From Thermococcaceae archaeon (GTDB lineage Archaea > Methanobacteriota_B > Thermococci > Thermococcales > Thermococcaceae), in NCBI GenBank assembly GCA_027064745.1, contig JAMOPD010000086.1, positions 1 through 17,784 on the forward strand: DNA of 17,784 bases, read 5' to 3'. A program made the translations under genes and the position numbers. Below the pieces are notes generated by a model. The model made no database searches, was not told where the DNA came from, and saw nothing but the letters and a program-made list of their open reading frames with translations. Below are positions 4,546-17,256 of this stretch, in pieces. Position 1 is the first letter of the stretch, and every line of letters begins with the position of its first letter.

Positions 4546-5730
4546 TTATCGTCTGAGTTTGAAGAGGATAAAAATCAGTCCAATAACCGATATAACACTC
4601 AGGGAGAAGGATATTAAAGTTAAAGGCATATCGCTCCTCTCCTGCGGTCGCCAGAAATCCCTTCTTGAGACATAGATATCAACTGCATAAACATTCTTCT
4701 CCCCAACACCTTCAAGAAGTGTGAAAGGAGATGCTGAGGTGAATCCAGTGAAGACATCGAGATAGTAATCATTCCCCGGAGGGTTACGTCTTCCAACAGT
4801 TATATAGCCTCCGGCAAAGCTTATTTCAACCATCTGGGGACCGGGAGGAAGGACACCCTGACACTTCTTCAGGTGCTTTGAGGTTATACAAACTCTACCC
4901 TTCTCAAGGTAGATTCGGGACTCTACATATCCAGGAGTTCCATGAAAACGCAGCAATGTTATATCTCCTCCGTCATAAAAGAATTCAAGGTTTATCTTAA
5001 ACTCCTTAAAAGGTCCCCAATATCCGAACAAATAAGTAAAGTTCCTAAAAATTGCAATGTACTCATCCCTCATCCTTTTCTCAACAGGTGCTATTCCATA
5101 GGCATACACCTCAAAATCTTTCCAACCTTCAATCTCCAAGCTTATGTTTCCTGAGAGATTGAGATTTCGAGAGTCAATGAACCAGACATTCTCAGAAATA
5201 TGTTGCGGCTTAAAAGTGGCGTTAATAACATCTGACTCTGACTCCAGCTTAACCCTCAAGTTTGCAGAGGATATCGGGGTTTCATTTTCAGTCAGCAGTG
5301 TGGAGACTATGTATATACCAACAATCGGCCATGGAGAACTTATCCTAAAAGTTTTCCTGTTTTTATCGGCTGGTATTAAGACGAGCCTTTTTCGCCATGT
5401 GTATAGTCTTCCGATTACATGCATGTCAAGGTTGATCCTCGGAGTCAGATTAAATTTAACTTTGCAAGGAGCAATTAATAGGACTGAAACATTCCCTCCA
5501 ATATGAGGTTCAAGTTCAATACTCCCACTGGGTAAAGAAAGAGCTTTGACACTGCTCCCGCTACTCCAGTTTAAAATGAGGAGGGCTTCACCAGAGCAGT
5601 TTGCCGTATAGTTCAGATAAATATTTTCAAAGATATAGCCCCCCGGTGCCTCTATATTCTGAGTGTAACTCCATGCAGATACAGATGACAGAAGGAAGAG
5701 TATCACAAACACTGCACCATACTTCTTCAC
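4546..5730 (-). CDS. Secreted, C-terminally membrane-anchored protein, unknown function (third of three)
   Basis: I do not recognise this 394-residue protein. It has an N-terminal signal peptide (basic MKK, hydrophobic core to about residue 18) and one C-terminal transmembrane helix (about 367-390) ending FKLRR, so almost all of it should face outside the cell. The body looks beta-rich and has many N-x-S/T sequons. About residues 240-360 resemble the C-terminal regions of the two upstream proteins: FFYDGGD, then GRVC and KKC as a cysteine pair, then PPGPQMVEISFAGGY. That region may be a concanavalin-A-like sandwich, but this is inference. The start is a GTG overlapping the upstream stop as GTGA, with AGGAGG eight bases before it. 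The operon ends with this gene; rnz has its own promoter. Confidence 0.82.
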   Translation of the reverse strand: MKKYGAVFVILFLLSSVSAWSYTQNIEAPGGYIFENIYLNYTANCSGEALLILNWSSGSSVKALSLPSGSIELEPHIGGNVSVLLIAPCKVKFNLTPRINLDMHVIGRLYTWRKRLVLIPADKNRKTFRISSPWPIVGIYIVSTLLTENETPISSANLRVKLESESDVINATFKPQHISENVWFIDSRNLNLSGNISLEIEGWKDFEVYAYGIAPVEKRMRDEYIAIFRNFTYLFGYWGPFKEFKINLEFFYDGGDITLLRFHGTPGYVESRIYLEKGRVCITSKHLKKCQGVLPPGPQMVEISFAGGYITVGRRNPPGNDYYLDVFTGFTSASPFTLLEGVGEKNVYAVDIYVSRRDFWRPQERSDMPLTLISFSLSVISVIGLIFILFKLRR

Positions 5731-8141: not shown

Positions 8142-8220
8142 ATACTGTTAGTAGGATAAGTTAGACAGCCCGCATATAGGAGTTATTCTCAGGCGCCCTC
8201 ACAGCTTATCCTAACAGTAT
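8142..8220. repeat. 79-bp MITE-like element in the divergent promoter region
   Basis: Left end ATACTGTTAGTAGGATAAG (8142-8160) and right end CTTATCCTAACAGTAT (8205-8220) are inverted repeats of 16 bp, apart from three extra bases (TAG) in the left arm. Inside the left end, TTAGACAGCCCGC resembles the sequence at 13775-13787 after another end of this type. ACTCAA occurs on both flanks (8134-8139 and 8222-8227), a possible but short target duplication. The element ends 20 bp before the TPR gene TATA box. Confidence 0.75.
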
Positions 8221-10157: not shown

Positions 10158-10657
10158 GGTCTTCTTTTCTATTTACATTGAAAAACTCCCTTTCCATTCT
10201 TTAGGACTTCCCTAACAGCCACGTTGAGCATGTTTTCTCCGGAGGAAATTTTCATCCAGAGAATTTCCCTAAATGCCCCTGAATAAACTGCATGAAGCGG
10301 CTCTAGATAACCGGAGGGACACAGACAATCGGTCTATACCGTTCAAACATCTCAATCAGATAATCGACGAACTCAAGATTGATCTTCGGCATGTCTCCAC
10401 CAGCAATAAATACATCACTGTGGCTTAGGGCAGTATATAAGTCCGGCAGGAAACTCATCGACTAGAATCTCAAACCCAAGATGCCTGAGCCATTCTGCAT
10501 TTTCCTTGGAGGTTATGAGGAAGATATCGTCAATCCTCTCTACCTTAAGGAGCCTTTCAATGGTGTATAAAATAAGCGGCTTTCCATCTATCCTGTAAAA
10601 GAGCTTGTTTAACCCAAAACGCTTTGATTTTCCTCCTGCAAGAATCGCAGCCTGCAT
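10135..10657 (-). pseudogene. mobA: Decayed molybdenum cofactor guanylyltransferase (MobA)
   Basis: MobA attaches GMP to molybdopterin. The start at 10657 encodes MQAAILAGGKSKRFGLNK, the nucleotide-binding loop LAGGxSxRFGxNK, then GKPLILYTIERLL and VDEFPAG. The frame then breaks near 10437-10442, and also appears to lack codons where intact MobA usually has a Gly-rich GPxxGIYTAL. It resumes in another frame as YTALSHSDVFIAGGDMP, breaks again near 10309-10314 and continues as YLEPLHAVYSGAFREILW. A third shift in a T-run near 10181-10190 would give FFNVNRKEDL, the usual C-terminal motif, ending at 10135 within the GNAT 3' end. All parts together are close to full length. There is no ribosome binding site, and the tnpB element begins about 18 bp upstream of the ATG. 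Confidence 0.85.
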
Positions 10658-10779: not shown

Positions 10780-10935
10780 GTGAAAAGGCTCGACGTGTAC
10801 ATCCCCGACGAACTGGACAAAAAGTTCAGAGAAACCGTTAGAAGAAAGTACGGGAACAGAAGGGGCGCCTTAAGCATAGCCGTAGAACAGGCAATCAGAA
10901 ACTGGATCAAAAAAGTCGAGGAAGAGGAAGGATGA
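10780..10935 (+). CDS. Small ribbon-helix-helix (CopG/Arc-like) protein encoded upstream of tnpB
   Basis: A 51-residue basic protein. It opens with KRLDVYIPDELDKKF, the beta-strand plus first helix of ribbon-helix-helix proteins, then a GNRRGALSIAVEQAIRNWI second helix, which is the typical RHH layout; it should bind DNA as a dimer. The start is the GTG at 10780 with GGGTGAT five bases upstream. Its TGA overlaps the tnpB ATG as ATGA, so the two are translationally coupled. A plausible role is autoregulation of the element or binding of its left end, but nothing in the sequence proves a target. Confidence 0.83.
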   Translation: MKRLDVYIPDELDKKFRETVRRKYGNRRGALSIAVEQAIRNWIKKVEEEEG

Positions 10936-12245
10936 AGAGGAGCATAACAGTAAAACTCCAGCCCTCAAAAGAACAAGAGAGAATCCTTTTCGAGATAGCC
11001 CAAGCAACAGCGCTAATCTGGAATAAAATCAACTATGAGAGATTAAAACAGTTCAAAAAATTCGGCAAAATAAACTTCGCGACAACAGAAAAAGAAGCCT
11101 ATTACACCTTCAAAGACTGGGTTGGCGGCTCAACAGTCCAACAACTGGCCAGAAAGAACGCTGAAGCCTGGCGGAGCTTCTTCACCCTCAACAGAAAGAA
11201 AAAGAAGGGAGAACTCTCCTCTTGGTTCAAGCCAAGACCGCCGAAATTCATCAGAGAAAAACACGGGAGAAAACTCTTCATAATCCCCTTGAGGAACGAC
11301 CAGTATCGAATTGAGGGTAACGTTATCGAGCTGAGGCGCCTCGGAAAGTTTGGACGATTAAAAATCCAGTTCAAGGGGAGAATTCACTTGAAAGGTAAAC
11401 AGGGAAGGCTAGAAATTACCTACGATGATGTTAAACGCAAGTGGCATGCTCACATTAGTTATACTGTCGAAGAGAAGTTAAAGGGCAATTCTTGGGTCAA
11501 AGTTCCGAGAGAACCGAAGGGAAATCTTTCTGCAGGGATAGACTTGGGTATAAACAATTTGATGGCAGTTTATGTTGAAAACGGTAAAAGCTTCCTCGTG
11601 AATGGAAGACCATTAAAGAGCATTGATTTCTACTGGCGGAAGAAGATTGCCAAGTACCAGTCAAAACTCAACAAGTCTGGCTGTAAAAAGAGTAGAAAAC
11701 TCAAAAGAATGCACGAGAAGGCAAAACTCCAAGCAAGGCATTATATTAACACGGCAGTTAGGCAGACAGTTAGAAGACTTTATAGGTTGGGAGTGAGCAA
11801 AATCATCGTTGGTTATCCTAAAGAGATCGCAAGGGAACCAGACAAGGGGAGAAAACAAAACTTCATCCTCTCCCACGTGTGGCGGTTTAATTATGTCATT
11901 AAACGTTTAACTGAAGTTGCCGAAGAGTATGGTATTAGTGTTGTGGTTGTGAATGAGGCTTTTACTTCTAAGGTTTGCCCCGTCTGCGGCCAACGCCACT
12001 CAAATGGTAGGTTCGTTAGAGGTTTGTTTAAGTGTCCCGCAACGGGGCTTGTTTTTAACGCTGACTTAGTTGGAGCGTTTAACATTTTGCGCAAAGTTAG
12101 AACCATAACCCCGAATTTGGGCGGTTTGTACGCTCAGAGGCGGGGTAACGGGGGGAAGACCCTCCCCGAGAGGTTCGAAGAACCCGTTTTAATGGGTTCA
12201 TTGATGAGAACCCCTCAAACCTCCCCGTCACTGGCGAGGGGTTAA
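10932..12245 (+). CDS. tnpB: TnpB-family RNA-guided nuclease of an IS200/IS605-type element
   Basis: A 437-residue full-length TnpB, an RNA-guided RuvC endonuclease. The N-terminal domain opens KRSITVKLQPSKEQERILFE. The RuvC-like core starts AGIDLGINNLMAVY (catalytic Asp204), and the last catalytic Asp is D378 in NADLVGAFNIL. The usual second catalytic residue (motif v-v-E-dL) is missing: the equivalent segment reads IIVGYPKEI with Gly294. Instead Glu342 occurs in NEAFTSKVCPVCG, where most TnpBs have Pro. The zinc finger keeps C349, C352 and C368, but the fourth Cys is Thr371. The last codons overlap the GC-rich hairpins expected to be omega-RNA scaffold. The ATG overlaps the RHH stop. There is no frameshift, so it may be active. 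Confidence 0.93.
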   Translation: MKRSITVKLQPSKEQERILFEIAQATALIWNKINYERLKQFKKFGKINFATTEKEAYYTFKDWVGGSTVQQLARKNAEAWRSFFTLNRKKKKGELSSWFKPRPPKFIREKHGRKLFIIPLRNDQYRIEGNVIELRRLGKFGRLKIQFKGRIHLKGKQGRLEITYDDVKRKWHAHISYTVEEKLKGNSWVKVPREPKGNLSAGIDLGINNLMAVYVENGKSFLVNGRPLKSIDFYWRKKIAKYQSKLNKSGCKKSRKLKRMHEKAKLQARHYINTAVRQTVRRLYRLGVSKIIVGYPKEIAREPDKGRKQNFILSHVWRFNYVIKRLTEVAEEYGISVVVVNEAFTSKVCPVCGQRHSNGRFVRGLFKCPATGLVFNADLVGAFNILRKVRTITPNLGGLYAQRRGNGGKTLPERFEEPVLMGSLMRTPQTSPSLARG

Positions 12246-12298: not shown

Positions 12299-12338
12299 GT
12301 TTATAACCTTAGTATTACATTTCCAAAGGTTTATTTTT
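12299..12338 (+). promoter_or_regulatory. hypC promoter: SurR-type core site and TATA box
   Basis: GTT-TAT-AAC (12299-12307) matches the SurR core motif GTTn3AAC; the extension expected after n5 (GTT) reads TAT, so only the core is present. TTTATTTTT (12330-12338) is the TATA-like element, about 34-42 nt before the hypC ATG. The operator lies upstream of the TATA box, the activating arrangement. Confidence 0.65.
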
Positions 12339-12371
12339 GCTCCATCCGAATTTTTAGCAGAGGTGAAAAAA

Positions 12372-12596
12372 ATGTGTCTTGCAGTTCCGGCCAGGGTTGT
12401 GGAGATCAGGGATAAGGTTGCCATCGTGGATTTCGGTGGAATCAGGAGAGAGGCGAGACTTGATTTGCTGCCTGATGTTAAGGTAGGGGATTACGTTATA
12501 GTCCACACAGGCTTTGCCATCGAGAAACTCGACGAAAAACAGGCTCTTGAAAGTCTGAAGGCATGGGAAGAAATCATGCAAGTTCTGGGGGAGTGA
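12372..12596 (+). CDS. hypC: Hydrogenase maturation chaperone HypC
   Basis: HypC is the small scaffold and chaperone that, with HypD, assembles the Fe(CN)2CO group and delivers it to the NiFe hydrogenase large subunit. The 74-residue product begins MCLAVPARVVEI. The Cys after the initiator Met is the iron-binding residue of the family, so the start must be the ATG at 12372 (GGTG six bases upstream) and not the in-frame GTG at 12363. IVDFGGIRREARLDLL and VGDYVIVHTGFAIEKLDE are the remaining family signatures. hypD starts 3 bp after its stop. It is the first hyp gene, immediately downstream of the tnpB element. Confidence 0.96.
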   Translation: MCLAVPARVVEIRDKVAIVDFGGIRREARLDLLPDVKVGDYVIVHTGFAIEKLDEKQALESLKAWEEIMQVLGE

Positions 12597-12599
12597 AGG

Positions 12600-13712
12600 A
12601 TGCTTGATTTGAAAATCTTTGAAAACCGCGAGCTGGCCCAGAAGATTCTCCAAGCCATCAGAAGGGAGGCTGAAAGGATAGAAAGGGAAGTCCGGCTGAT
12701 GCACGTCTGTGGAACCCATGAGGACACGGTAACGAGGAGCGGGATAAGATCACTCCTTCCTGAGAATGTTAAAATAGTCAGCGGACCGGGATGTCCTGTC
12801 TGCATAACCCCAGTTGAAGACATTGTGAGAATGCAGGAGATAATGAGGAAAGCGAGAGAAAAGGGTGATGAAATAATTCTCACAACATTCGGTGATATGT
12901 ATAAGATTCCAACGCCCAGAGGGAGCTTTTCAGACCTCAAAGGAGAAGGTTATGACATCAGGATAGTGTATTCAATCTATGACACTTACAAAATTGCCAG
13001 AGAAAACCCCGACAGGCTTGTTGTCCACTTCTCCCCCGGCTTTGAGACAACGACTGCACCAGCCGCGGGAATGCTCGAAACGGTTGCAGGGGAAAAACTA
13101 GAGAATTTTAAAATTTACTCTGTTCACCGCTTAACTCCTCCGGCCGTTGAAGCTCTCGTAAAGCAGGGAACAGTCTTCGACGGACTCATTACCCCCGGTC
13201 ATGTCTCCACAATAATAGGAGTTAAGGGCTGGGAGTACATAACAAGTGAATACGGGATTCCGCAGGTCATTGCGGGCTTTGAACCGGTCGATTTCCTGAT
13301 TGGAGTTCTGCTTCTCCTCAGGATGATACGGGATGGAGAGGCGAGAATTGAGAATGAATATACCCGTGCCGTCAGATACGAGGGGAATACAAAGGCTCAG
13401 GAGTTAATTGACAGATTCTTTGAGGTAAAAGATGCTAAATGGAGGGCCCTTGGGGTTATTCCGGCGAGTGGATTGGAGCTCAGGGGGGAATGGAAAGATC
13501 TCGATATCAAAAATATCTACAAGGTCAAGGTTCCCAAGCTTCCCGACCTTGAAAAGGGCTGCCTGTGTGGGGCTGTTCTCAGGGGAATGGCATTACCAAC
13601 AGACTGTCCGCTCTTCGGAAAGGAATGCACTCCACGCCATCCAGTTGGGCCTTGTATGGTGTCCTACGAGGGAACATGCAGCATATTCTACAAATACGGT
13701 GCTTTGTTCTGA
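12600..13712 (+). CDS. hypD: Hydrogenase maturation protein HypD
   Basis: HypD is the iron-sulfur protein on which the Fe(CN)2CO unit is put together with HypC. The 370-residue product has the expected conserved parts: MHVCGTHEDTV (Cys37), GPGCPVC (Cys65, Cys68), HFSPGFETTTAP, GFEPVDFL, and a C-terminal cluster-binding segment with CLCG, DCPLFGKEC and GPCMVSYEGTC that ligates the [4Fe-4S] cluster. All expected cysteines are present. The ATG at 12600 has GGAGTGA just upstream, overlapping the end of hypC. Unlike many genomes, hypE does not follow directly; a 210-bp spacer with operators precedes hypF. Confidence 0.97.
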   Translation: MLDLKIFENRELAQKILQAIRREAERIEREVRLMHVCGTHEDTVTRSGIRSLLPENVKIVSGPGCPVCITPVEDIVRMQEIMRKAREKGDEIILTTFGDMYKIPTPRGSFSDLKGEGYDIRIVYSIYDTYKIARENPDRLVVHFSPGFETTTAPAAGMLETVAGEKLENFKIYSVHRLTPPAVEALVKQGTVFDGLITPGHVSTIIGVKGWEYITSEYGIPQVIAGFEPVDFLIGVLLLLRMIRDGEARIENEYTRAVRYEGNTKAQELIDRFFEVKDAKWRALGVIPASGLELRGEWKDLDIKNIYKVKVPKLPDLEKGCLCGAVLRGMALPTDCPLFGKECTPRHPVGPCMVSYEGTCSIFYKYGALF

Positions 13713-13730
13713 GGGTTCGGGCACCCATCC

Positions 13731-13817
13731 AGTTTTAACTTTTGGTTTTTTAGAATTGGTACTGTCAGGATAAGTCAGAGTGCCCGCCTAATTGGAAACT
13801 TATGAATGCTCTGAAAG
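13731..13817. repeat. Upstream, degenerate copy of the hypF promoter repeat
   Basis: Positions 13731-13755 and 13798-13817 match the functional promoter copy at 13857-13900. The second part is 16 of 20 identical, with transitions only (TATAAAT there, TATGAAT here). The copy is split by about 40 bp containing a GGTACTGTCAGGATAAGTC end. Its SurR-like site has two instead of three spacer bases (GTT-TT-AAC), so it is probably dead. Confidence 0.7.
13756..13795. mobile_element. Solo end of an insertion sequence or MITE
   Basis: GGTACTGTCAGGATAAGTC (13758-13776) continues AGAGTGCCCGCC and closely parallels the left end of the 8142-8220 element. No matching right end follows. AATTGG occurs at both edges (13754-13759 and 13790-13795), possibly a target duplication. 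The first bases GGTACTGT recall IS6-family ends, but the family is not proven. Confidence 0.55.
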
Positions 13818-13831
13818 TCTTTCTCTGAGCC

Positions 13832-13890
13832 AACCTTTGGTTTAAAACTCCCCTCTAGTTTTTAACTTTTGGTTTTAGAAACCTATAAAT
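13832..13890 (+). promoter_or_regulatory. hypF promoter with two full SurR-type operators
   Basis: GTT-TTT-AAC-TTTTG-GTT (13858-13874) is an exact match to the extended SurR motif GTTn3AACn5GTT. AAC-CTTTG-GTT-TAA-AAC (13832-13848) is an exact match in the opposite orientation. Both lie directly upstream of the TATA box CTATAAAT (13883-13890), where SurR activates. Transcription should start near 13910, just before the GGTGAG ribosome binding site. Confidence 0.82.
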
Positions 13891-13922
13891 GCCCCGAAAG
13901 AAAAGAGAAAAGCGGTGAGAAG

Positions 13923-16235
13923 ATGAAAAGTTATCACATTCATGTGGAGGGCATAGTTCAGGGAGTTGGTTTCAGGCCCTTCGTCTACCGAATTGCCCAT
14001 GAAAATGACCTTCGGGGATATGTTAAAAACCTTGGAGATGCGGGTGTGGAGATAGTTATTGAAGGCCGGGAGGAAAATATCAAAAAGTTCCTTAGAGACC
14101 TCAGGGAGAAGAAACCTCCACTGGCTAGGATTGAGAAGATAAAGAAAAAAGAGATTCCACTTCAGGGATTTGACCGCTTTTACATCGAGAAAAGTTCTCA
14201 AGGGGGAGAAGGTGGAGATTCGATAATACCACCTGATGTTGCCATATGCGATGACTGTATCAGGGAGCTCTTTGATCCAGCGGATAAGCGCTATATGTAC
14301 CCATTCATAGTATGCACAAACTGTGGACCGCGTTTTACTATAATTGAAGACCTCCCTTACGATCGCATAAACACCACCATGAGAGAATTTGATATGTGCG
14401 ACTTTTGTGAGAGTGAATACAAGGATCCTCTCAACAGGCGCTATCATGCCGAACCCGTATGCTGTCCGGTCTGCGGGCCAAGTTATCGCTTATACACGAA
14501 AGATGGGGAAGAGATGAGGGGAGATCCTCTCAAAAAAGCCGCAAGGCTAATAGATGAAGGCTACATCGTGGCAATCAAGGGGATAGGTGGAATCCATTTA
14601 GCCTGTGATGCCACCAATGAAGAAGCCGTCGAAGAGCTCAGGAGAAGGACTCTCAGACCTCAGAAGCCCTTTGCCCTGATGGCCAGAGACCTGAAGACCA
14701 TTGAGAGCTTTGCCATAGTAGATGAGCCGGAAAAGGAGGAACTAACCTCCTACCGAAGGCCTATACTGATTCTCAGGAAGAAGGAGCCGTTTCCTCTGCC
14801 GGAAAAGCTCGCACCCGGTCTGCACACAATCGGCGTCATGCTACCCTATGCCGGGACGCACTACATACTCTTTCACTGGTCAAAGAGTCCTGTCTATGTG
14901 ATGACATCCGCCAACTATCCAGGTCTTCCTATGGTAAAAGATAACGAGAGGGCATTTAAAGAGCTGAAGGATTTAGCCGATTACTTCCTCCTCCACAACA
15001 GGAAAATCCTCAACAGAACCGATGACAGCGTTGCCCGCTTTGTAAATGGAAAGAGAGCCGTGATAAGAAGGAGCAGGGGCTTCGTGCCGCTTCCTGTAGA
15101 AATCCCCTTCCACTACACTGGGTTGGCTCTCGGAGCTGAGCTCATGAACGCGTTCTGCATAGCGAAGAACGGAAGAGTCTATCCAAGCCAGTACATAGGC
15201 AACACCGGAAAAATTGAGGTGCTCAACTTTATGAGAGAGGCAATAAATCACTTCAAAAAGATACTTAGACTCAAAAAGCTGGATCTGATAATAGCCGACC
15301 TTCATCCCACATACAACACAACAAAGCTTGGAATGGAACTGGCTGAGGAGTCACACACGGAGTTCCTCCAAGTTCAGCACCACTATGCACACGTTGCATC
15401 AATAATGGCTGAGCACAGACTCGATGAAATCATAGGAATAGCTCTCGATGGCGTTGGCTATGGAACAGACGGAAATGTGTGGGGTGGGGAGGTTATATAC
15501 CTCAGCTATGAGGATGTTGAGAGGATTGCGCATATTGATTACTACCCGCTTCCAGGCGGTGATCTGGCGAGCTACTATCCCCTAAGAGCCCTCATGGGAA
15601 TACTGAGCAACATTTACCGGATCGATGAGGTACAGGAGATAATTAAGAGACACTGCCCAAAGGCCATTGAGAGCCTCAAATATAAAGATGTCGAGTTCAA
15701 CGTCATACTGAACCAGCTCACTAGAGGAATAAACGTATCATATGCCTCCTCAACAGGAAGGGTGCTCGATGCATTTTCAGTTCTCCTGAATGTCGCATAT
15801 AGCAGAACCTACGAGGGCGAACCAGCTATGAAGCTTGAGAGCCTTGCACTTAAAGGCAAAAATGATCTGAAGTTTGAAATTCCTGTTGAGGGCGAAACCC
15901 TGAAGGTGGAGGAGCTCTTCAATCAGACACTGGAAAGCAGGCCAAATCCTGCTGACATAGCATATTCGGTTCATCTCGCCCTTGGTAGGGCCTTTGGAGA
16001 GATAGCACTTGAGAAGGCAGAAGAGTTTGGAGCCAGAGCCATCGGAATCAGCGGCGGGGTTGCATACAACGAGCTGATAGTTAAGACCATCAGGAAAATG
16101 GTCGAGACAAGGGGATTGAAGTTCTATTCAACGTATGAAGTCCCGAGAGGGGACAACGGAATAAACGTCGGGCAGGCGTTCCTTGGAGGGTTGTACCTCG
16201 AAGGGTATTTAAGCAGAGAAGACTTGATACTCTAA
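13923..16235 (+). CDS. hypF: Carbamoyltransferase HypF
   Basis: HypF uses carbamoyl phosphate and ATP to carbamoylate the C-terminal Cys of HypE, the source of the hydrogenase cyanide ligands. The 770-residue protein has the full domain order: acylphosphatase (residues 1-90, VEGIVQGVGFRPFVYRIA), two zinc fingers with four CxxC pairs (C109/C112, C131/C134, C159/C162, C181/C184), a YrdC-like domain (about 200-385, KGIGGIHLACDATNEEAV), and a Kae1-like domain with HHYAH (H486, H487, H490), DGVGYGTDGNVWGGE and SGGVAYNELI. I chose the ATG at 13923 because GGTGAG is three bases upstream and the acylphosphatase domain starts there; the longer frame from 13869 begins upstream of the TATA box. hypE follows within 10 bp. 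Confidence 0.97.
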   Translation: MKSYHIHVEGIVQGVGFRPFVYRIAHENDLRGYVKNLGDAGVEIVIEGREENIKKFLRDLREKKPPLARIEKIKKKEIPLQGFDRFYIEKSSQGGEGGDSIIPPDVAICDDCIRELFDPADKRYMYPFIVCTNCGPRFTIIEDLPYDRINTTMREFDMCDFCESEYKDPLNRRYHAEPVCCPVCGPSYRLYTKDGEEMRGDPLKKAARLIDEGYIVAIKGIGGIHLACDATNEEAVEELRRRTLRPQKPFALMARDLKTIESFAIVDEPEKEELTSYRRPILILRKKEPFPLPEKLAPGLHTIGVMLPYAGTHYILFHWSKSPVYVMTSANYPGLPMVKDNERAFKELKDLADYFLLHNRKILNRTDDSVARFVNGKRAVIRRSRGFVPLPVEIPFHYTGLALGAELMNAFCIAKNGRVYPSQYIGNTGKIEVLNFMREAINHFKKILRLKKLDLIIADLHPTYNTTKLGMELAEESHTEFLQVQHHYAHVASIMAEHRLDEIIGIALDGVGYGTDGNVWGGEVIYLSYEDVERIAHIDYYPLPGGDLASYYPLRALMGILSNIYRIDEVQEIIKRHCPKAIESLKYKDVEFNVILNQLTRGINVSYASSTGRVLDAFSVLLNVAYSRTYEGEPAMKLESLALKGKNDLKFEIPVEGETLKVEELFNQTLESRPNPADIAYSVHLALGRAFGEIALEKAEEFGARAIGISGGVAYNELIVKTIRKMVETRGLKFYSTYEVPRGDNGINVGQAFLGGLYLEGYLSREDLIL

Positions 16236-16245
16236 GGTGGTGGCA

Positions 16246-17256
16246 ATGAAGATCAGACTTGAACATGGAGCAGGCGGAGAGCTGATGGAAGAGTTCATAC
16301 GGGATGTCATACTGAAGAATCTCACGCTGAAATCAGCGGGTGGGATTGACCTTGAGGCACTGGACGACGGCGCCACGATTCCCTTTGGGGATAAGCATAT
16401 TGTTTTCACGATAGACGGGCATACGGTGAAGCCGCTCTTCTTCCCTGGAGGGGATATTGGCAGGCTTGCAGTGAGCGGAACGGTAAATGATTTAGCTGTT
16501 ATGGGTGCTAAGCCATTAGCTCTGGCAAATTCTATGATAATCGAGGCAGGCTTCGATGAGACCAGCCTTGAGAAAATCCTGAGGTCAATGGATGAAACAT
16601 CAAAAGAAGTTCCCGTTCCAATAATAACAGGAGACACGAAGGTTGTTGAGGACAGGATAGGCATGTTCGTAATCACAGCAGGCATTGGAATCGCCGAACG
16701 GCCGGTAAGCGATGCAGGTGCGCAGGTTGGTGATGTTGTGCTCGTCAGCGGGACAATTGGTGACCATGGAATGGCAATAATGAGCTACCGCGAGGGAATA
16801 GCCTTTGAAAGCGACCTCAGGAGTGATGTTTCCCCTGTCTGGGATGTTGTTAAGACTGTTGCCGATGCCATAGGCTGGGAGAACATCCATGCCATGAAGG
16901 ACCCAACAAGGGCAGGGCTGAGCAATGCTTTGAACGAGATTGCGCGGAAATCCGGGGTTGGAATACTGGTGAGGGAGCGCGATATACCCATAAAGCCTGA
17001 AGTCAGGGCCGCGAGCGAAATGCTCGGCATAAGTCCCTATGACGTAGCGAATGAAGGGAAAGTTGTGATGGTTGTTGCACGGGAGTATGCGGAAGAGGCT
17101 CTTGAATCCATGAAAAAAACCAGAAGAGGAAAAGATGCTACAATAATCGGAGAAGCCATGAAGGAGTACAGAGGAAAAGTCATCCTCGAAACTGGAATCG
17201 GCGGCAAGAGGTTTATGGAGCCTCCAGAGGGAGACCCTGTTCCCAGGATATGCTGA
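16246..17256 (+). CDS. hypE: Hydrogenase maturation protein HypE
   Basis: HypE carries the carbamoyl group from HypF on its C-terminal cysteine and dehydrates it with ATP to a thiocyanate, which supplies cyanide to HypC-HypD iron. The 336-residue protein begins MKIRLEHGAGGELMEEFI and contains LDDGATIPFG, FTIDGHTVKPLFFPGGDIG, VSGTVNDLAVMGAKPLAL and ITGDTKVVE, the AIRS/ThiL-type ATP-binding features. It ends with the diagnostic VPRIC (Cys336 terminal), so it should be active. The ATG at 16246 is preferred (GGTGGT upstream); GTGs at 16237 and 16240 are alternatives. It is the last gene of the hypF-hypE unit. Confidence 0.97.
   Translation: MKIRLEHGAGGELMEEFIRDVILKNLTLKSAGGIDLEALDDGATIPFGDKHIVFTIDGHTVKPLFFPGGDIGRLAVSGTVNDLAVMGAKPLALANSMIIEAGFDETSLEKILRSMDETSKEVPVPIITGDTKVVEDRIGMFVITAGIGIAERPVSDAGAQVGDVVLVSGTIGDHGMAIMSYREGIAFESDLRSDVSPVWDVVKTVADAIGWENIHAMKDPTRAGLSNALNEIARKSGVGILVRERDIPIKPEVRAASEMLGISPYDVANEGKVVMVVAREYAEEALESMKKTRRGKDATIIGEAMKEYRGKVILETGIGGKRFMEPPEGDPVPRIC

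Follow-up and report, generated by a model that had tools for sequence, protein, structure and literature searches.

The promoter of hypF-hypE in a Thermococcaceae genome carries an unusual, fixed double site in a SurR-type promoter. The pair is real and conserved, and it probably serves activation by SurR. We assign a probability of about 0.85 to the reading that this is a SurR-activated hypF-hypE operon promoter whose double operator, of fixed geometry, has been kept in most of the order Thermococcales. HypF and HypE synthesise the cyanide ligands found in the active sites of [NiFe]-hydrogenases, a role supported for T. kodakarensis (PMC13260591). The window, by which we mean the whole analysed stretch of 17,784 nucleotides, contains the following elements around the hypF start, the hyp genes here and below being identified by NCBIfam models, all above cut-off.

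13832..13848, reverse strand: distal extended SurR-type site, AACn5GTTn3AAC, an exact match
13858..13874, forward strand: proximal extended SurR-type site, GTTn3AACn5GTT, an exact match
13875..13883, forward strand: BRE-like stretch TTAGAAACC, adjoining the proximal site and assigned as BRE by resemblance
13884..13889, forward strand: TATA box, TATAAA, called from the sequence
13914..13919, forward strand: GGTGAG, the likely hypF ribosome-binding site, judged from the sequence
13923..16235, forward strand: hypF, encoding carbamoyltransferase HypF (TIGR00143, 885.8 bits, cut-off 466.1)
16246..17256, forward strand: hypE, 3' of hypF (TIGR02124, 390.6 bits, cut-off 251.6)

The initial annotation had described two exact extended sites in opposite orientations, 9 bp apart and 5' of the TATA box, and both matches are indeed exact. 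The promoter thereby contains, twice over, the exact GTTn3AAC/GTTn3AACn5GTT motif of a SurR-regulon member. The proximal site ends at 13874, 9 bp before the TATAAA that starts at 13884, and the hypF ATG follows at 13923; this is an activator-type placement, 5' of BRE and TATA without overlap, the edge of the BRE being inexact. From the gap of 10 bp between them, hypF and hypE are probably co-transcribed. Shuffled sequence yields 0.07 extended sites on average against the two of the window, and two or more appear in 1 of 200 shuffles. Genome-wide, a single exact extended site is weak evidence, because the assembly scanned for such sites (2.38 Mb in 424 contigs, 85% complete) contains 34 of them against 20 for the reversed-pattern control.

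The evidence that carries the argument comes from the positional conservation of the pair. HypF is present in 90 of 94 Thermococcales genomes, and promoters were read in the 87 of these with a hypF start on the contig, one locus each (L035-L121). The entire set comprised 92 loci (L031-L122), of which L034 and L122 had no hypF start in the automatic step, and L031-L033 come from the same genomes as L036, L101 and L115, so the genome counts rest on L035-L121. The proximal extended site is exact in 84/87 promoters, beginning at -65 to -67 relative to the start codon, the exceptions being L037, with an extra T inside the site, L112 and L113. Among the 84 promoters with an exact proximal site, the distal GTTn3AAC core lies exactly 18 bp upstream in 77, the exact core being missing in L065, L076, L079, L088, L099, L105 and L118; the sole other core offset is -32, in four promoters. 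The extended form of the distal site is exact in 19/84 and has at most one mismatch in 79/84, with many members of the window's genus reading CACC at the outermost base of the distal arm where the window reads AACC. Thus, the motif scan of orthologous hypF promoters that the initial annotation had proposed finds both sites kept in the manner of a SurR-regulon member. This degree of sequence conservation marks the paired site as a real and old control element and no peculiarity of the window's genome.

Column statistics were drawn from 26 representatives with less than 90% HypF identity, anchored on the proximal site. Because of this anchor, the nine consensus columns of the proximal site are invariant by construction and contribute no column evidence, and 3/87 promoters were left out. 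The five bases between the proximal half-sites (n5) read TTTTG, are invariant in four of five columns and have a mean entropy of 0.05 bits, close to that of the TATA box (0.08; four of six columns invariant, mean top frequency 0.99); five of the nine columns of the BRE-like stretch are likewise invariant. Entropy is 0.47 in the distal core, 0.82 in its looser outer arm and 1.01 in the 9-bp spacer, with reference values of 1.64 for the flank upstream and 1.69 for 125 four-fold degenerate positions in hypF. Set against these two references, the near-constancy of n5 indicates constraint beyond what the published consensus needs.

These differences between the two sites bear on a variant of our explanation, in which the proximal site alone activates and the distal one is retained to serve a different factor or as part of the promoter's upstream context. 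The greater constancy of the proximal site (84/87, as compared with 77/84 for the distal core and 19/84 for its exact extended form) agrees with such a scheme, as do the single sites listed before several SurR-linked operons of T. piezophilus (PMC8595942, Table 2). However, the distal core sits at an exact 18-bp offset, and across 66 distinct promoters its six columns and the adjoining TC each reach at least 92%, a constraint above that of the flank; we therefore regard the variant as possible but somewhat doubtful. As a separate observation, three members of genus g3 (L111, L114 and L116) and L105 have an extra GTTn3AACn5GTT at about -98 to -81, overlapping the distal site, which gives a three-dyad element in the three g3 members.

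The pair is also found essentially only at hypF. The pattern GTTn3AACn9GTTn3AACn5GTT occurs in 79/94 genomes, against one match of the reversed control in all 94, and in 77 of the 79 it is the hypF promoter read here. In the remaining two, the pair lies at a contig end: G052 has a cut hypF start, and in G059 the promoter sequence is the same but no readable gene remains. Additional matches precede a second, cut hypF start in G082 and the second hypF of G069; the lone match away from hypF, before a different gene in G062, looks like chance. The pair is missing from 15 genomes, among them all three members of genus g2 and the one g6 genome, and in five of the 15 the hypF start is unreadable. A reading of the sites as the chance matches that a short motif would have in intergenic DNA rich in A+T can appeal to the small excess of single extended sites over the reversed control in this genome, yet it is exceedingly improbable in view of the order-wide positional conservation and of how rarely the pair occurs elsewhere, and as an account of the pair as a conserved element it is already refuted by these sequence comparisons. 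A nearly unique and strictly kept pair at hypF suggests selection for tight sulfur control of active-site assembly in addition to the enzymes. The hypF promoters also offer a clean test of how output depends on the number and spacing of SurR sites, in which natural one-site variants can be compared. In G069, two hypF loci (L094 and L122) each have the paired operator, the N-terminal part of the second being a separate match.

The genome encodes the SurR, with a redox CxxC and adjoining pdo, that such a regulon presupposes. The gene lies on contig 348 (C348 of G000), divergent from pdo, and its product has CTEC in the N-terminal domain, matches PF0095 at E 5.6e-88 and scores 374.3 bits with NCBIfam NF047699 (cut-off 250); it was located via pdo, being absent from the HTH_20 loci first fetched. 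Comparison gives strong support to the predicted SurR control of hypF-hypE: the two sites keep their place, spacing and sequence across relatives, they occur as a pair almost exclusively at hypF, and the genome encodes SurR.

On contig 125, an mbh-type cluster repeats the hypF layout of an extended site, then TTAGAAAC, then TATA, with the same site orientation and distance to TATA. Its promoter bears two extended sites, 96 and 11 bp before the gene, which are the distances of the two long sites given for T. barophilus mbh2 (PMC12162507, Table 2, where mbs has four). The identity of this cluster rests on gene order and the CGIC and CLCC motifs of the large subunit, for which no NCBIfam model matched above cut-off. 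An assignment as a SurR-repressed mbs cluster with an 'MbhA-like' gene was considered and rejected, as the contig has one large antiporter subunit and a CGIC/CLCC large subunit, the mbh pattern. The mbh class is SurR-activated according to PMC10025317 and PMC12401011, and the former places the motif just upstream of BRE/TATA in the frh, fhl, nfd and mbh promoters. The hypF promoter resembles the SurR-activated mbh, sh and frh promoters in having an extended GTTn3AACn5GTT just 5' of BRE/TATA, but adds a second, inverted site at a fixed core-to-core distance of 18 bp. Multi-site SurR promoters (T. barophilus mbh2 and mbs; surR/pdo) likewise have more than one SurR-type site each, yet as tabulated in PMC12162507 these are 85 bp apart, or have starts just 8 bp apart and overlap. 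A literature search on SurR with hypF, hydrogenase maturation or the motif, covering parts of articles outside the primary SurR papers, returned no passage on the hypF double site.

Further extended sites in this genome lie near hypA, sulfhydrogenase-2 beta, a CoA-disulfide-reductase/NSR-like gene and an frhA-like hydrogenase subunit (273.7 bits, below the cut-off of 392.5), whereas several additional ones inside reading frames look like chance. Because hypA and the hydrogenase operons carry sites as well, the proposal that hypF-hypE is the main sulfur switch finds no support here.

From the sites, their geometry, their conservation and near-restriction to hypF and the presence of SurR, all computed here, we infer binding, activation and cooperativity at the pair, the predicted cooperative double operator being based on the constant 18-bp offset (77/84). 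In the absence of sulfur, reduced SurR would bind the proximal extended site, 9 bp before TATA and abutting the BRE-like stretch, and from there would help to recruit TFB/TBP. The inverted distal site, 18 bp further upstream, would take up a second SurR, which would probably raise occupancy or steepen the response. Elemental sulfur would oxidise the SurR CxxC, with loss of binding, and hypF-hypE would fall along with the other hyp and hydrogenase operons.

Published expression data bear on the sign of this control. In T. onnurineus proteomics, HypF ratios are 0.26 for sulfur/CO, 0.41 for sulfur/formate and 0.18 for sulfur/starch, and those of HypE are 0.69, 0.86 and 0.45, significant against starch only (PMC4463584); its authors connect SurR with the maturation genes and refer to Lipscomb et al. 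2009 and Yang et al. 2010. This drop of HypF and HypE, together with the mbh-type layout in the present genome, makes activation without sulfur likely. On the other hand, Palaeococcus pacificus RNA-seq lists hypF as 10.8-fold up on sulfur (PMC6981617). The same table has MBH1 also up, unlike in the other two species, and a word search of the article's text gave no match for 'replicate' or 'qPCR'. In G002, taken to be Pa. pacificus (L076), the distal core is shifted by one base and ends in AAT, and the proximal site is intact. Of what the initial annotation had claimed, SurR control of hypF-hypE stands well on conservation, near-uniqueness and an encoded SurR, and activation draws on the mbh-type layout and the T. 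onnurineus drop, with Pa. pacificus pointing the opposite way.

The Pa. pacificus increase at an intact proximal site could reflect SurR that binds and represses: the closeness of the proximal site to the BRE may allow steric repression, such that SurR would block TFB/TBP and sulfur would de-repress hypF-hypE. We consider this very unlikely, given that the identical layout is found at the mbh-type cluster, whose class is SurR-activated, that the T. onnurineus proteins drop on sulfur, and that the rise of MBH1 indicates a response differing more widely in Pa. pacificus. Also unlikely, if a little less so, is a composite element in which the distal site sets sign or gain, with both sites giving activation and a decayed distal site, as in the three g2 genomes, leaving a lone proximal site neutral or repressive. 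If true, this would explain the rise of hypF on sulfur in Pa. pacificus, which belongs to genus g2, and a maturation gene would pass from the hydrogen programme to that of sulfur through the loss of one half-site. That rise is explained equally well by a general difference in the organism or the experiment, because MBH1 is listed as up as well. SurR activation through the fixed double operator remains our preferred reading.

The neighbouring hypC-hypD genes provide a comparison within the same window:

12299..12307, forward strand: core SurR-type site 5' of hypC without the third GTT half-site; L031, the nearest relative, retains this core
12372..12596, forward strand: hypC (TIGR00074, 95.8 bits, cut-off 48)
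12600..13712, forward strand: hypD (TIGR00075, 450.2 bits, cut-off 192.8)

As the initial annotation had it, hypC in the window has the core site alone; the core is real and the third half-site is absent. Its further claim, that hypF-hypE is controlled separately from hypC-hypD, fails in the window's genus, where an extended site at about -65 of hypC is present in 38/41 members read (2/7 in genus g3). These counts come from 48/87 loci, 27 being without a hypC start and 12 short of upstream DNA, and cover the window's genus and g3, hypC of the other genera lying outside the stretches fetched around hypF. An earlier count of distinct sequences, window included, gave the extended site in 42/53, the cut copy L036 being among the eleven without it. 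Hence hypC-hypD in this genus appears usually to be wired like hypF-hypE, and since the relatives mostly keep the full site, the difference between hypC and hypF in the window, whose lineage is without the third half-site (12299-12340) kept in those 38 members, looks like a lineage loss. The hypC promoter of relatives resembles that of hypF in that an A-rich BRE-like stretch follows an extended site placed at about -63 to -67, but there is a single extended site, reduced to the core in the window and its nearest relative and absent from several g3 members. Directly 5' of the hypC promoter lies a TnpB-family RNA-guided endonuclease gene (10932-12245); by eye, L031 has no such gene at this position.

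Between hypD and the distal site, the window has an insert with these parts:

13715..13830, forward strand: insert of 116 bp that encloses a decayed proximal-promoter copy, from alignment with L031, edges ambiguous by a few bases
13732..13747, forward strand: GTTn2AACn5GTT, a near-copy of the proximal site one base shorter, from the sequence and the L031 alignment
13760..13789, forward strand: part of a dispersed inverted-repeat element, with AATTGG on either side at 13754-13759 and 13790-13795

The nearest relative, L031 (91% HypF identity), is without these about 116 bases. Some 30 bases of the repeat element separate the two parts of the promoter near-copy, GTTTTAACTTTTGGTTTTTTAGAA and GGAAACTTATGAATGCTCTGAAAG. 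The copy, whose SurR-type site the initial annotation had left unmentioned, is probably inactive, since that site lacks one base and the TATA is degraded. A simple tandem duplication was rejected, the insert being a decayed partial copy broken by the repeat-element fragment. The repeat end motif TACTGTCAGGATAA has 170 matches in the assembly with at most one mismatch (control, none), four of them in the window:

2721-2735: inverted-repeat end match
5338-5352: inverted-repeat end match
8204-8218: inverted-repeat end match
13761-13775: inverted-repeat end match, at the insert

Copies were read at L124-L131, one of them (L131) in a genus g2 genome. By eye, the elements are about 80-90 bp long, with ends TACTGTCAGGATAA ... 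TTATCCTGACA and short flanking duplications in some copies, and they look like MITEs.

Within the window, no Rfam family was found at its gathering score. Elsewhere in the assembly there is a second HypF-like protein of 44% identity (L183, G000:C39:81-2030), either a contaminant or a true paralogue. Finally, the reading frame at 10415-10657 resembles, by eye, the start of a MobA-type nucleotidyltransferase and is probably truncated.
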